Shown here: piece after piece, positions 14,116 through 19,406 of the stretch | Numbering within the stretch: the first letter of the stretch is position 1 | Layout: each line of letters starts with the position of its first letter | Source of the DNA: Candidatus Chlorohelix allophototropha | GTDB taxonomy: Bacteria; Chloroflexota; Chloroflexia; Chloroheliales; Chloroheliaceae | Direction of reading: 5' to 3' | Length of the DNA stretch: 64,000 nucleotides | Assembly (NCBI RefSeq): GCF_030389965.1 | Contig: NZ_CP128399.1 | Location: 1,178,001-1,242,000 of the forward strand | Position numbers and translations under genes: made by a program | Notes under the pieces: model-generated | Seen by the model: the letters and a program-made list of their open reading frames with translations, nothing else | The model's database searches: none | Told to the model about the DNA's origin: nothing

Positions 14116-14374
14116 ATACGATCCTCGTAACATTAGAAAAGTAAATTTTATCACTCTTTTCATTCTTACTATACTAACCTATTGCCATAATGACAAGGTA
14201 CAAAAGGCTTATTTGAGTTTCCTCTTGTTATACATTTCGGTCAGGAAAACAATAAACGCCAATTTTTAAGCATTTCTTACAACTTACTTTACTAATATCT
14301 AACATTTGTAAAGATTTTCTTCATTACAATTAGCAGAAGAATTAAAAGCAGTATTGTATGAAATGAGGTAACTC

Positions 14375-15571
14375 TTGCAACCGAAACTTAAAGAACGAGA
14401 ACCGCAGCGAACTAAACCTGCGCCTGCTCCGATAACCCCCCCGGTTATCTCAGCCAGCGCCGCCGTTCTGCCTCTCCGCCTATTCCTATCGATATCCTTT
14501 CTCTACGCCGGTATAGATAAATTATTCGATCTAGATTTCTTAAACCCTAACGCTTCGGGATATATTGGCAACCAGCTTACCGGGTTCGCTCAGAATTCGC
14601 CCATCGGTGGGTTCTTGACCTCAGTAGCAGTACCCAACGCCACCTTGTTCGGCGTTATGATGCTGGCAGGTGAGCTTGCTATCGGTCTTGGTACGTTAGT
14701 GGGTTTGTTCAGTCGCACAGCCGCCTTCTTCGGCATGGTTATTAGCCTGACTTTGTGGGTAAGTACTACCTGGAATGTAACTCCCTTTTTCCTTGCCTCG
14801 GACTTACCCTATGCGATGGGCTGGCTGGTCTTGGCATTAGCAGGGGCACATCCCGTATGGAGTCTTGATGGACAAATACAGCTATGGCTTAATGAGCGCA
14901 AACGTCAGGAGATACTGAAACAGGGTAAGCGCGCAGTAGTACATCCACCCAACCCTGAACTGGTCAGAACGCAGGCGCGGCGGCACTTTCTAGCAGTTGC
15001 GGGTGGGACTCTTGTCGCCGGAAGCTTAACCGGAGTAGCTTGGTTTAATTCAGTTTCAAATCGCAATGCCAACTCGACAACACAGAGCGTTCCGATTGAG
15101 ACTAGCCCGATTATTACTTCCACGCCTGTCACCAATCCATTTGCCAATAATCCACAACCTGTAACCACCACCGCTCAAGGGCAATTCACCGCAACCACTT
15201 CTACACCCGCAAACGCGACAAAGACAACCGCTGTAGCTAATACCAGCGCGCCGATAAACGGTAAAGTGTTAGGGGCTATAGCCAGTTTGCCTGTGGGAGG
15301 TTCTTTGAAATTCATAACGCCCGATACCGGTGACCGAGCTATCGTTATTCATAATAGCAATGGCTCGGTAAAAGCTTTTTCCAGTATTTGTACTCATGAG
15401 GGTTGTGAGGTCACTTACTACCCAAACCAACAGTATTTGGAGTGTCCTTGCCATGGGGCGCGCTTTGACCCCAATACCGGGGCTGTTTTGCGCCGACCTG
15501 CTAACCGACCGCTCAAAGCCTATAATGTTTCGGTAGATAATAGCGGCAATATAATTTATCAGCTTAAATAG
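14375..15571 (+). CDS. DoxX-family membrane domain fused to a Rieske 2Fe-2S protein
   Basis: A 398-residue fusion. Residues about 30-170 form a DoxX-like bundle of four membrane helices. A basic linker then leads to ARRHFLAVAGGTLVAGS (about 201-217), a twin-arginine-like motif followed by a hydrophobic helix. A Thr/Ala/Pro-rich linker follows, then a Rieske domain with CTHEGC (339-344) and CPCHG (357-361), giving both Cys and both His ligands plus the disulfide pair. Rieske domains pass single electrons. The layout suggests a membrane redox protein with the Rieske head outside the membrane, possibly working with quinone or a thiosulfate/quinone-type oxidoreductase. It starts with TTG, with GAGGT 5 nt upstream. 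No bc-type cytochrome genes are adjacent. Confidence 0.88.
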   Translation: MQPKLKEREPQRTKPAPAPITPPVISASAAVLPLRLFLSISFLYAGIDKLFDLDFLNPNASGYIGNQLTGFAQNSPIGGFLTSVAVPNATLFGVMMLAGELAIGLGTLVGLFSRTAAFFGMVISLTLWVSTTWNVTPFFLASDLPYAMGWLVLALAGAHPVWSLDGQIQLWLNERKRQEILKQGKRAVVHPPNPELVRTQARRHFLAVAGGTLVAGSLTGVAWFNSVSNRNANSTTQSVPIETSPIITSTPVTNPFANNPQPVTTTAQGQFTATTSTPANATKTTAVANTSAPINGKVLGAIASLPVGGSLKFITPDTGDRAIVIHNSNGSVKAFSSICTHEGCEVTYYPNQQYLECPCHGARFDPNTGAVLRRPANRPLKAYNVSVDNSGNIIYQLK

Positions 15572-15650: not shown

Positions 15651-17828
15651 CTAAAACGTCAGGGTGTCAATTAGCTGACGCGCTAAGGGGGCAGCTTTTT
15701 CATTGCCAAAACCTGCCTCTTCCAATGCAATCACCACCGCATATTTAGGTTTATCGGCGGGCGCATAACAACAGAACCAAGCGTGGGGTGTCTCCTTACC
15801 GCTTTCTGCCGTACCGGTTTTGCCTGCCACCCTAATACGCGAACCGGCAAAAGCTTGCGCCCCGGTACCGGATATTGTCACATCCGCCAAGGCGCGGCGA
15901 ATTATATCGAGGTTAGCAGACGAAATGGGCAATTTCTGCTTAACTTTAGCGGCGTAGGTTTGGGGATTCGCGCCTTTCTCGCTACGCGCTACCAAACGAG
16001 GCACCGGGATTTGCCCACCGTTACCGATAGCGGCATACAAAGCTGCCATATGAAGCGGTGTAACCAGCAAATAGCCCTGCCCAATGCCCAAATTTACCGC
16101 ATCGCCCCGCACCCAAGCTTGTTGGAGGTTGTCCTTTTTCCATTGTGGGTCTGGAACCTGTCCGGGCGCATCGGTCAAGCCTACCAACCCGGTGGAAGAA
16201 CCTAACCCAAAACCTTTGGTTACTGCTGGTAATAACAGTGGGTCGGTTTCATCCAGCTTTTTGCCAAGCTCGTAAAATACTACATCACACGATTGTACCA
16301 ACCCTTGATAAAGGGTAATGTTGCCATGCCCGGTTTTAAGATAACAATCTTTGGCAAATTGCTCTCCCAACCCCGTCCAATGTCCGGTGCAGGTAAAACG
16401 GTCATCGGGCTTCATCCCAAGTCTTTCCAACGCCGCCGCCATCGTAATAACCTTGAAGGTTGAACCGGGAGGAAGCAAGCCTGTAACCGGACGATTTTGG
16501 AAAGGATGGCGCGGGTCATCATTCAGCGCTTTAAACTGGCTACCGCTCAACCCTAGAATAAACCCATTCGGATCATAGCGGGGGTTGCAAGCAAGCGCCA
16601 ACGTAGAGCCGTCGTTTACATCCAGCACCACTATGCTACCCATCTTGTCGCCCAAAATCCGCTCGGCGTTCTTTTGAATAGTCAGGTCAAGATTTAGCAC
16701 CAAATTAGAACCGTCAACCGATGCTTTCTCCGCCAGTTTCTCGGAAATACCACCGTCCGGTGTGATAATGGTCAGCTTGCCGCCCTTATCGCCTGCAAGC
16801 AACTCTTCAGCCCACGCCTCAACTCCCGCCCGTCCGATCTGGTCATCTTCGCGATAACCTTTAGCTGCCAGCGTTTTCAACTCCTCCGCGTTAACCGCCG
16901 AAAGATAGCCCAACGTTTGGGCAGCGGTAGTAGCAGCCGGATATACCCGATCTTCTGTCTCAGCTATGCCCACCCCCTTGATAGCCTGCAAAGTATTCAG
17001 GGTAGCTTGCGGCGTACTGCCCGGCAACCGTTTTATATCCATTCGCCAATCCGGTTGCCCGTTCTTGTACAAATCCTTTATGACGTTCTTATCCATCGTA
17101 AGACTCTGGCTCAAAGTATCCAGCAATTGTTGCTCATTATCGATTTTACCGGGAACAACAAAAACCGTGTAATAGACTCCGGCTTTTGCCAGCGGTTGCA
17201 GCGAACGATCAGAAATTGTCCCGCGTGTAGGATTCAAAGGTATCATGCGTACCAGATTTCCGGTTGCCAACCCTGAAAAAATATTGGTGGGTTGCCAGTC
17301 TATTCGCCAACGGTTATTATCCTGCACCAATCGCAAGGTATTTTGCTGAGTGAAATCCCCTGCTCGGATAGTTTTAAAGTTTGCCGTGAAATTAAACCCA
17401 TAAGGGTCATTCGGAGTGGCGGGAGGCTTTGCGCTACCCAACTTTGTCTGTAAATTGGAAAGAGTTGCCTCTGCTGCAATATTGGTATAGCGGGCAACAA
17501 ATTTATCACGCTCAATAAAGCCACGCGCTGAAACCGAAAGTAGCGCGTACATATCCTCGTAGCGCTGTTCTTCCCAAGCTTTGAGAAAATTCCCCGCTAT
17601 ATCTTCGGGTTTTTCAGGAGCAGTAGGAGTAGAGGTAGGCATGGGAACTGTACCGGAACGGACAGCCGGAATTGTATCGGAGCGACCCGCCGAAGTAGTG
17701 GTAGGATTTGCAGTGTTAGCAGTCGGTTCATCACTGCATGCCTCCAAAAATCCTCCAACAGTGATAACCATTGCTGCCATTTGTAGAAATCGTCTCCGCC
17801 CTATCTTCATGCTGTCTCCCTGATTCAT
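15651..17828 (-). CDS. Class B penicillin-binding protein with NTF2-like (MecA-N) domain
   Basis: A 725-residue D,D-transpeptidase that cross-links peptidoglycan outside the membrane. The N-terminus has RRRFLQ followed by a hydrophobic segment ending in LEAC, a Tat- and lipobox-like signal. Residues about 75-190 form an NTF2-like MecA-N domain, next the PBP dimerisation domain, then the transpeptidase. Its motifs are visible: STFK (SxxK), SCD (the form found in MrdA-type PBP2), and KTGTAES. This is the domain plan of MecA/PBP3-type proteins. The ATG at 17828 has GGAGG 6 nt upstream; a second ATG six codons later is also possible. It is read separately from the upstream surface gene, which has its own terminator. 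Confidence 0.92.
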   Translation of the reverse strand: MNQGDSMKIGRRRFLQMAAMVITVGGFLEACSDEPTANTANPTTTSAGRSDTIPAVRSGTVPMPTSTPTAPEKPEDIAGNFLKAWEEQRYEDMYALLSVSARGFIERDKFVARYTNIAAEATLSNLQTKLGSAKPPATPNDPYGFNFTANFKTIRAGDFTQQNTLRLVQDNNRWRIDWQPTNIFSGLATGNLVRMIPLNPTRGTISDRSLQPLAKAGVYYTVFVVPGKIDNEQQLLDTLSQSLTMDKNVIKDLYKNGQPDWRMDIKRLPGSTPQATLNTLQAIKGVGIAETEDRVYPAATTAAQTLGYLSAVNAEELKTLAAKGYREDDQIGRAGVEAWAEELLAGDKGGKLTIITPDGGISEKLAEKASVDGSNLVLNLDLTIQKNAERILGDKMGSIVVLDVNDGSTLALACNPRYDPNGFILGLSGSQFKALNDDPRHPFQNRPVTGLLPPGSTFKVITMAAALERLGMKPDDRFTCTGHWTGLGEQFAKDCYLKTGHGNITLYQGLVQSCDVVFYELGKKLDETDPLLLPAVTKGFGLGSSTGLVGLTDAPGQVPDPQWKKDNLQQAWVRGDAVNLGIGQGYLLVTPLHMAALYAAIGNGGQIPVPRLVARSEKGANPQTYAAKVKQKLPISSANLDIIRRALADVTISGTGAQAFAGSRIRVAGKTGTAESGKETPHAWFCCYAPADKPKYAVVIALEEAGFGNEKAAPLARQLIDTLTF

Positions 17829-17981: not shown

Positions 17982-19406
17982 CTAGGAGTAATAGCCGTAG
18001 CAATCCACAATAATATTGCAATCGCGTTGTGTGGCTACATTCAGTTGCCCGGTACTGGTATTAATTTTATTGAGAAAGAAAGAGGTGACCACATTATTTG
18101 GCGAACTACCGATAGTTACCACCCCACGAGTCGCATCTGCCTTCGGGTAAGACGCACCAGTGGGCCACAGCGTAACATAACCAAATAAGGCTCCTGCATA
18201 AAAATAATATATCGAAATTACCCCGAATATAGCGGTGGCGCTGGTTGGAACCCCTGTAGCTGGACCGTTTACTCCTACGGTGCGAGTTTCAAAGGTCTTA
18301 GTATAAGGTACTATACTTGAATCAGTAGGCACAACCGTGTTGAAACCGGGTACCTGCCCGGCAGTAGACATACCAACCCCAGCCGCCGAGTCAAATACGC
18401 GCACCGGTGCTGGAAGTAAGGTGAGTTGCGGTCCCAGCGACTGCGTTACTTGAGACATCAAAGCCCAGCCCCCACTAGTACGTATATAGAAAACCCCGGT
18501 ATGGTCAACAAACATTTCTCCCGGAATTCCAGACCAAGATGGCACACCTGTTACAGTAGGATGTGGCTGTACATATAGCTGAGAACTGGTTGAAGAAAAA
18601 GTTCTAAATTGACCACCATAAGTGGCAGAGCTAATCCCTAAAACTCCCGGTCCACCTTCGGATGCGCCGAACACACCTGCCGCACCGGTGCTGCCACTGA
18701 AACCCGCCACCCCGTGCGAACTTGCGCTGGCACTACCCGAAGAACCTGTCACAGCCCCGGTATTTGAAAGCAAATTGTTATTAATGGTAGGAGTGCTACC
18801 GATTAGCCCCTGCACTGCCGCTTTGGAAGTACCTTGAGTTGTACCGCTAATTGCCACGTCATTGGTGGATGCACCGTTAAGCGCCACACCACTCGCAACC
18901 GTAACCTTAACGCCATCTAAAAGGGTGCCAGTGGTGGTTGCATTAGTAATATCCAGTACAGGCACAGCCGTACCCGGTGTACTACTGGCGTTAACCACAG
19001 TCCAATAAGTTGGAGCATTCGACTTGTTAGGGGTAGCGAAAGTGCCATCACCTGAAGTGGCATCTGATTGAAAATTCAAAGCCCCATACGCATACGCGGG
19101 ACTAGCCGTCTGTGAAAGGGTAGCCGCGCTGGCTACAGCAACGCCTGCCGCCGCTGCCCCCAAACGTCTGAGCATTTTGCGGCGACTGGTACGCGCTTCT
19201 ACTACCGCCACTTCTTGCTCGCTGTGCTTCTCTTGTAGGGCGTTCTCCAGCTTATTGATTTTAGCTTCAAGCTCATTTTTCTGAGCCGTAAACTCAGCGC
19301 GCTGTTTATCCATCGCAAGCTGCAAATTCTGTACCAGACTTAGCACCTGCTCCAGATTGGGCTTGGAAGAATCCAACGGTGAGTCGTTATTCGACATTTC
19401 AGACAA
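17982..19406 (-). CDS. Tat-type surface protein with N-terminal coiled coil and Gly/Ser repeats
   Basis: 474 residues. The first 70 are hydrophilic and heptad-like (LEQVLSLVQNLQLAMDKQR and onward), a likely coiled coil. Only then comes SRRKMLRRLG and a hydrophobic stretch ending in TASPAYA, a twin-arginine-like signal with an unusually long leader. The middle is rich in Gly, Ser, Ala and Thr with loose GVxGxS repeats (GVAGFSGS, GVFGAS, GVLGIS). The C-terminal 140 residues (starting LPAPVRVFDSAAGVG) resemble a beta domain common on actinobacterial and chloroflexal surface proteins. Probably a structural or adhesive exoprotein. Start has GAGGAG 9 nt upstream. Confidence 0.7.
   Translation of the reverse strand: MSEMSNNDSPLDSSKPNLEQVLSLVQNLQLAMDKQRAEFTAQKNELEAKINKLENALQEKHSEQEVAVVEARTSRRKMLRRLGAAAAGVAVASAATLSQTASPAYAYGALNFQSDATSGDGTFATPNKSNAPTYWTVVNASSTPGTAVPVLDITNATTTGTLLDGVKVTVASGVALNGASTNDVAISGTTQGTSKAAVQGLIGSTPTINNNLLSNTGAVTGSSGSASASSHGVAGFSGSTGAAGVFGASEGGPGVLGISSATYGGQFRTFSSTSSQLYVQPHPTVTGVPSWSGIPGEMFVDHTGVFYIRTSGGWALMSQVTQSLGPQLTLLPAPVRVFDSAAGVGMSTAGQVPGFNTVVPTDSSIVPYTKTFETRTVGVNGPATGVPTSATAIFGVISIYYFYAGALFGYVTLWPTGASYPKADATRGVVTIGSSPNNVVTSFFLNKINTSTGQLNVATQRDCNIIVDCYGYYS

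Follow-up and report, generated by a model that had tools for sequence, protein, structure and literature searches.

What does a protein do that joins a DoxX-type membrane module to a Rieske domain in one chain, and how would it be assembled? Such a gene was found in Candidatus Chlorohelix allophototropha, a phototrophic member of the Chloroflexota that has a type I reaction centre (PMC10972752). The genome of 6,086,194 bases is split into five contigs, among them contigs of 2,961,161, 2,453,413 and 375,274 bases; strain L227-S17 has been described as having two chromosomes, of 2.96 and 2.45 Mb, and a 375-kb chromid (PMC10972752). The window, which is the whole stretch of 64,000 nucleotides analysed here, contains a single open frame of 398 amino acids that carries both modules and starts with the TTG codon at 14375. 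The features of the gene, with the evidence for each, are as follows:

14365–14368, +, Shine-Dalgarno-like GAGG, 6 nt 5' of the TTG start (sequence reading)
14375–15571, +, DoxX–Rieske fusion, whole gene, stop codon included (open frame, Pfam, conserved fusions)
14444–14854, +, DoxX/DoxD module with four predicted membrane helices, residues 24–160 (Pfam, hydropathy, conservation in 46 sequences)
14855–14974, +, predicted cytoplasmic loop from helix 4 to the RR motif, residues 161–200 (hydropathy)
14975–14992, +, twin-arginine motif ARRHFL, residues 201–206 (RR conservation, TatC in the genome)
14990–15046, +, fifth membrane helix, putatively Tat-inserted, residues 206–224 (hydropathy, helix in a low-confidence model)
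15056–15259, +, linker rich in Thr, Pro, Ala and Asn, residues 228–295 (sequence)
15269–15562, +, Rieske [2Fe-2S] domain, residues 299–396 (Pfam, PDB match)
15389–15406, +, Rieske box 1 CTHEGC, residues 339–344 (ligands C339 and H341, disulfide C344)
15443–15466, +, Rieske box 2 CPCHGARF, residues 357–364 (ligands C357 and H360, disulfide C359)

Rfam had no match within the 64-kb window, and scans for promoters and terminators gave nothing above chance.

Domain structure and predicted membrane layout

Residues 31–136 were matched by Pfam DoxD (PF07681; 4.5e-15, 56.4 bits against a cut-off of 22.7) and by Pfam DoxX (PF04173; 2.3e-10, 41.4 bits against a cut-off of 23.6), and residues 317–383 were matched by Pfam Rieske (3.7e-14, 52.9 bits against a cut-off of 20.3). 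A PDB search with the protein returned soluble Rieske proteins, the best at 1.3e-13. With Pfam scores above the curated cut-offs and with the CTH and CPCH boxes, the protein is a member of both the DoxX clan and the Rieske proteins. A sequence-only reading of this DNA had proposed a DoxX-like N-terminus, an ARRHFL motif with a hydrophobic helix, and a Thr/Pro linker leading to a complete Rieske domain in the same chain. All of these parts were recovered, since the N-terminus proved to be DoxX by the Pfam matches, the hydrophobic segment directly follows the motif, and the linker runs to about residue 295 and is followed by two intact boxes (CTHEGC and CPCHG).

The best match within the DoxX clan was DoxD, at about 56 bits, and a DoxD-type membrane module is also present in the DoxDA thiosulfate:quinone oxidoreductase (TQO). 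This match favours a reading in which the protein oxidizes thiosulfate or sulfite in the manner of TQO, the DoxX module reducing quinone and the Rieske domain replacing DoxA. Rieske centres are not known to bind thiosulfate, which counts against this reading. Furthermore, the NCBIfam model of the large subunit scored 19.4 bits where its cut-off requires 300, there was no DoxA (PF07680) match in the genome, and thiosulfate is not mentioned in the paper on the organism (PMC10972752). We therefore consider a TQO-like function very unlikely. Membership in DoxDA itself was ruled out by the absent DoxA and the NCBIfam score far below the cut-off; the protein has a Rieske head instead.

Hydropathy picked out four segments within the DoxX module and a further one directly after ARRHFL, while residues 161–200 are charged and have no hydrophobic segment. 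Experimentally proven dual Sec–Tat proteins consist of an even number of helices, an RR motif, a single helix and a cofactor domain (PMC5449189). The four helices, RR motif, fifth helix and Rieske domain predicted here have the same layout, in agreement with the internal Tat-type segment proposed by the sequence-only reading. TatC is encoded in the genome. Because of the dual Sec–Tat layout and the presence of TatC, an exported head on a tether is likely, and the protein very probably depends on Tat. The mean hydropathy of the fifth helix was 1.54, compared with 1.32–1.91 for the other helices, and one Arg lies in the next 26 residues, a stretch in which this class is expected to carry positive charge; the low hydrophobicity of the last helix that is reported for proven dual-targeted proteins was not clearly seen.

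An AlphaFold2 model built from two sequences had low confidence (mean pLDDT 49.6) and placed helices at residues 27–51, 78–108, 114–132, 137–156 and 194–233. It is consistent with four plus one membrane helices and is no proof of topology. Its only confident region was the Rieske part, with pLDDT mostly 72–89, whereas pLDDT was below 40 across most of the linker, which is thus probably disordered. The length of the linker differs between orthologous fusions.

Conservation of the fusion and of its Rieske pocket

Orthologous full-length fusions in the same family and class were 40–53% identical to the protein. When 400 Chloroflexota genomes were searched with a profile, 78 gave matches. The verified set of 46 genes comprised 40 regions from 40 matching genomes, the gene of the window and a further five from near relatives; DoxX and Rieske lay in one frame in all 46, from many genera. 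The fusion is thus carried by at least 40 of the 400 sampled Chloroflexota genomes, although most sampled genomes of the window's own class had no match at the cut-off used. Among 72,556 plasmid records, none had a fusion that extended over 80% of the query. One genome has a second DoxX–Rieske copy that is interrupted by two stop codons and by a change of frame (L032, G004:C19:33706-34778), which may be a decayed gene or an assembly error.

The literature searched, as judged by titles and the openings of abstracts, described no single DoxX–Rieske protein; public databases may list the architecture. The fusion is therefore common in Chloroflexota and uncharacterised in the literature searched. 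The sequence-only reading had called the architecture unusual. It is not an oddity at this frequency.

The RR pair before the last helix was present in 45 of the 46 fusions, the exception being L077. Such conservation, together with the conserved orthologous fusions, argues against chance. A run-on or an assembly artefact joining two genes could be imagined from Rubrobacter, where DoxX and Rieske are separate adjacent genes. On the plasmid of Rubrobacter marinus (L109) this pair is located two genes from a multicopper oxidase; the two domains are the same as here but form two chains, and the Rieske chain carries a lipoprotein-like signal of its own at the N-terminus. Since the fusion is conserved, with 46 intact copies across many genera, an artefact is refuted and has almost no probability left.

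In the DoxX module, R35, K49, R114 and D143 were invariant and E100 was near-invariant in the alignment of the 46 sequences. There was no conserved Cys or His, and the protein of the window has no Cys and one His in this module; the module therefore probably carries no heme or thiol centre. In the Rieske domain, both disulfide cysteines were kept in 45 of the 46 fusions, and L088 had lost both together.

A362 and F364 of the protein occupy the positions of the bc1 Ser and Tyr, two hydrogen-bonding residues that typify high-potential members. At the Ser position, counted over L088 and the fusions whose boxes are intact, Ala was present in 42 cases, Gly in two and Ser in two; at the Tyr position, Phe was found in 35 of the 46 and Tyr in 11. 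Mutants of these Ser and Tyr residues lower the potential of Rieske centres by about 130 and 65 mV, respectively (PMC12954380). Because Ser is replaced by Ala or Gly in 44 of the 46 fusions and Tyr by Phe in 35, the potential of the Rieske centre should, judging from these residues, be lower than in bc1 complexes. Low-potential quinones accompany Rieske proteins below 200 mV (PMC12954380). However, Kustd1480 has Phe and yet +335 mV, and the pocket residues are not always predictive of the potential (PMC12954380).

The pocket residues also bear on whether the protein could be an alternative or spare Rieske subunit of a cytochrome b6f-like complex. Its disulfide-bearing head would suit such a role, and the organism has a b6f-like cluster (PMC10972752). 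However, separate bc/b6f-type Rieske genes exist in the same genome, L025 (6133-6696) adjoining cytochrome b and L026 (7937-8485) on the chromid, and both encode the Ser and the Tyr. In addition, the equivalog models scored 53.9 against 250, 46 against 275 and 34 against 97.4 bits, the Rieske domain groups apart from L025 and L026 in the Rieske tree, and the DoxX module is an addition that these subunits do not share. A b6f subunit is therefore highly improbable, and assignment to the bc1/b6f Rieske subunits was rejected on equivalog scores, gene context and the Ser/Tyr residues. The L025 gene is located on chromosome 2, and the L026 gene, on the 375-kb chromid, has no visible cytochrome b neighbour. 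With the cytochrome b–Rieske cluster elsewhere, the gene indeed lies outside any bc cluster, as had been proposed from the sequence.

Gene neighbourhood and the Rieske tail on other modules

The gene stands alone. On its 5' side there are an 82-aa frame on the opposite strand and a gene for a DUF6141 protein, with nuo genes further upstream, and on its 3' side there is a convergent penicillin-binding protein gene. The penicillin-binding transpeptidase with MecA_N at 15651–17828 (−) has an N-terminus, GRRRFLQMAAMVITVGGFLEAC, that resembles a Tat lipoprotein signal. A 474-aa protein with no Pfam match and a coiled-coil-like start is encoded at 17982–19406 (−), and its internal segment SRRKMLRRLGAAAAGVAVASAATL resembles a displaced Tat signal.

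No redox partner gene adjoins the gene, and none consistently adjoins its relatives. In L033 a gene for a molybdopterin protein neighbours the fusion. No export signal is visible in this protein; it is therefore probably cytoplasmic, where direct contact with the Rieske head would be impossible. A molybdoenzyme was rejected as partner for this reason and because the counterpart in the organism's own genome (L119) is on the other chromosome. In G003 the DoxX–Rieske gene comes after a ferric-reductase-like gene and ApbE. A DUF2231-type membrane protein, a candidate partner, is encoded directly 3' of the DoxX–Rieske gene in five loci (L068 7482-8024, L073 4453-5256, L081 2974-3558, L082 6418-7008 and L095 6748-7563; the Pfam check covered the L068 copy only), and a sixth locus, L078, apparently has the same arrangement downstream.

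In 10 of the 46 loci, two-component genes lay no more than two genes away from the fusion. They made up 19 of 171 neighbour genes and 15 of 273 genes further out, a twofold enrichment (Fisher p = 0.04, with non-independent loci). These neighbours favour a redox sensor or regulator, in which the head would sense how oxidized the quinone pool or the cell exterior is and the DoxX module would signal to a partner without bulk electron flow. Further support comes from large-genome (Ktedonobacteria-like) Chloroflexota, in which a protein-kinase domain, an RR-type segment, a helix and a related Rieske domain form one chain (L110 1935-4010, L111 1748-3751, L112 1253-2710, L113 1762-3360, L114 1376-2887, L116 1644-3365 and L117 2329-4581). 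The HRD and DFG aspartates were replaced in all six of these proteins with a parsed catalytic loop, which suggests pseudokinases; judging from these replacements, they are probably redox-reading pseudokinases. However, the two-component enrichment is weak, the gene of the window has no two-component neighbour, and the kinase–Rieske proteins have no DoxX module and do not occur among the Rieske matches of the window's own genome. We rate a sensor as unlikely, yet as a serious rival of the carrier proposed below.

Two further proteins of the same genome (L002 1492-2856 and L003 1495-2856) carry a ferric-reductase/MsrQ-like heme module in place of DoxX, followed by the same tail of RR motif, helix, linker and Rieske domain. 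Unlike the protein of the window, they have lost the disulfide cysteines. The RR pair was present in all seven ferric-reductase–Rieske proteins aligned. In the Rieske tree, which has few columns and many open forks, the ferric-reductase group was nested inside the DoxX–Rieske group of the same family, with support of 100/99 for the joint clade and 100/93 for the ferric-reductase group. Because the tail is also found on ferric-reductase-like and kinase-like modules, it can be regarded as a swappable head. A wider reading, which we put forward as doubtful, is that Chloroflexota use this tail as a general extracytoplasmic redox head that can be plugged onto DoxX (quinone), heme (ferric-reductase) and pseudokinase (signalling) modules, the DoxX form being a one-protein quinol-state sensor or a quinol oxidase head without cytochrome b. 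The modular tail suggests that Rieske centres function outside bc complexes in more cases than has been assumed.

A proposed quinone-linked carrier

The domains, the conserved RR pair, the cluster ligands, the disulfide pair and the Ala and Phe at the tuning positions can all be read from the sequences. We lean, with moderate confidence, towards a Sec/Tat-assembled, membrane-anchored and quinone-linked extracytoplasmic Rieske electron carrier. Besides these sequence features, the reading is favoured by TatC, by the exchange of the tail with the heme module, by the ferric-reductase-like and ApbE genes next to the fusion in G003 and by the multicopper oxidase near the Rubrobacter pair; the lack of a redox partner gene nearby, the hydropathy of the fifth helix, the L033 molybdopterin neighbour and the potential of Kustd1480 count against it. 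The four DoxX helices would be inserted by Sec with both termini of the module inside, and the Rieske head would fold and acquire its [2Fe-2S] cluster while still in the cytoplasm. Tat would then recognize ARRHFL, and with insertion of helix 5 the head would be placed outside on its flexible linker. The DoxX module may provide a site for (mena)quinone exchange close to the outer face; that it binds quinone is an economical guess, about as probable as the carrier itself. The tethered medium-potential head would pass single electrons between this site and a soluble or membrane partner. Such a protein would resemble, in its working, a bc-type Rieske head that functions without cytochrome b, or a DoxDA-type TQO in which Rieske replaces DoxA. 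We infer both the membrane topology and the direction of electron flow in the carrier; that it may take electrons from quinol, as the sequence-only reading suggested, is conjecture.

If this is correct, the protein would be a candidate for carrying electrons in a phototroph that has a type I reaction centre and whose electron routes are poorly known. It would also offer a simple test of quinone handling by DoxX, a very widespread membrane family, and the few proteins known to need both Sec and Tat for assembly would gain another family with a Rieske domain. DoxX is not mentioned in the paper on dual-targeted families (PMC5449189). The actinobacterial three-helix Rieske proteins QcrA and Sco2149, which are dual Sec–Tat proteins, likewise have an even number of helices, an RR motif, one helix and an outside Rieske domain. 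In contrast to them, the protein described here has four DoxX helices rather than two, no cytochrome b partner, Ala and Phe at the tuning positions, and a long disordered linker. The Sco3746-type five-helix MoCo proteins and the polytopic polyferredoxins also have four helices, an RR motif, a fifth helix and an extracytoplasmic cofactor domain (PMC5449189), but they differ in cofactor and helix family, and the protein described here has no heme ligands. The same genome encodes a polytopic protein (L118 1123-2751) that resembles the dual Sec–Tat Sco3746 family, since GRRRFILGL precedes a helix in it and its C-terminal domain is of the molybdopterin type.
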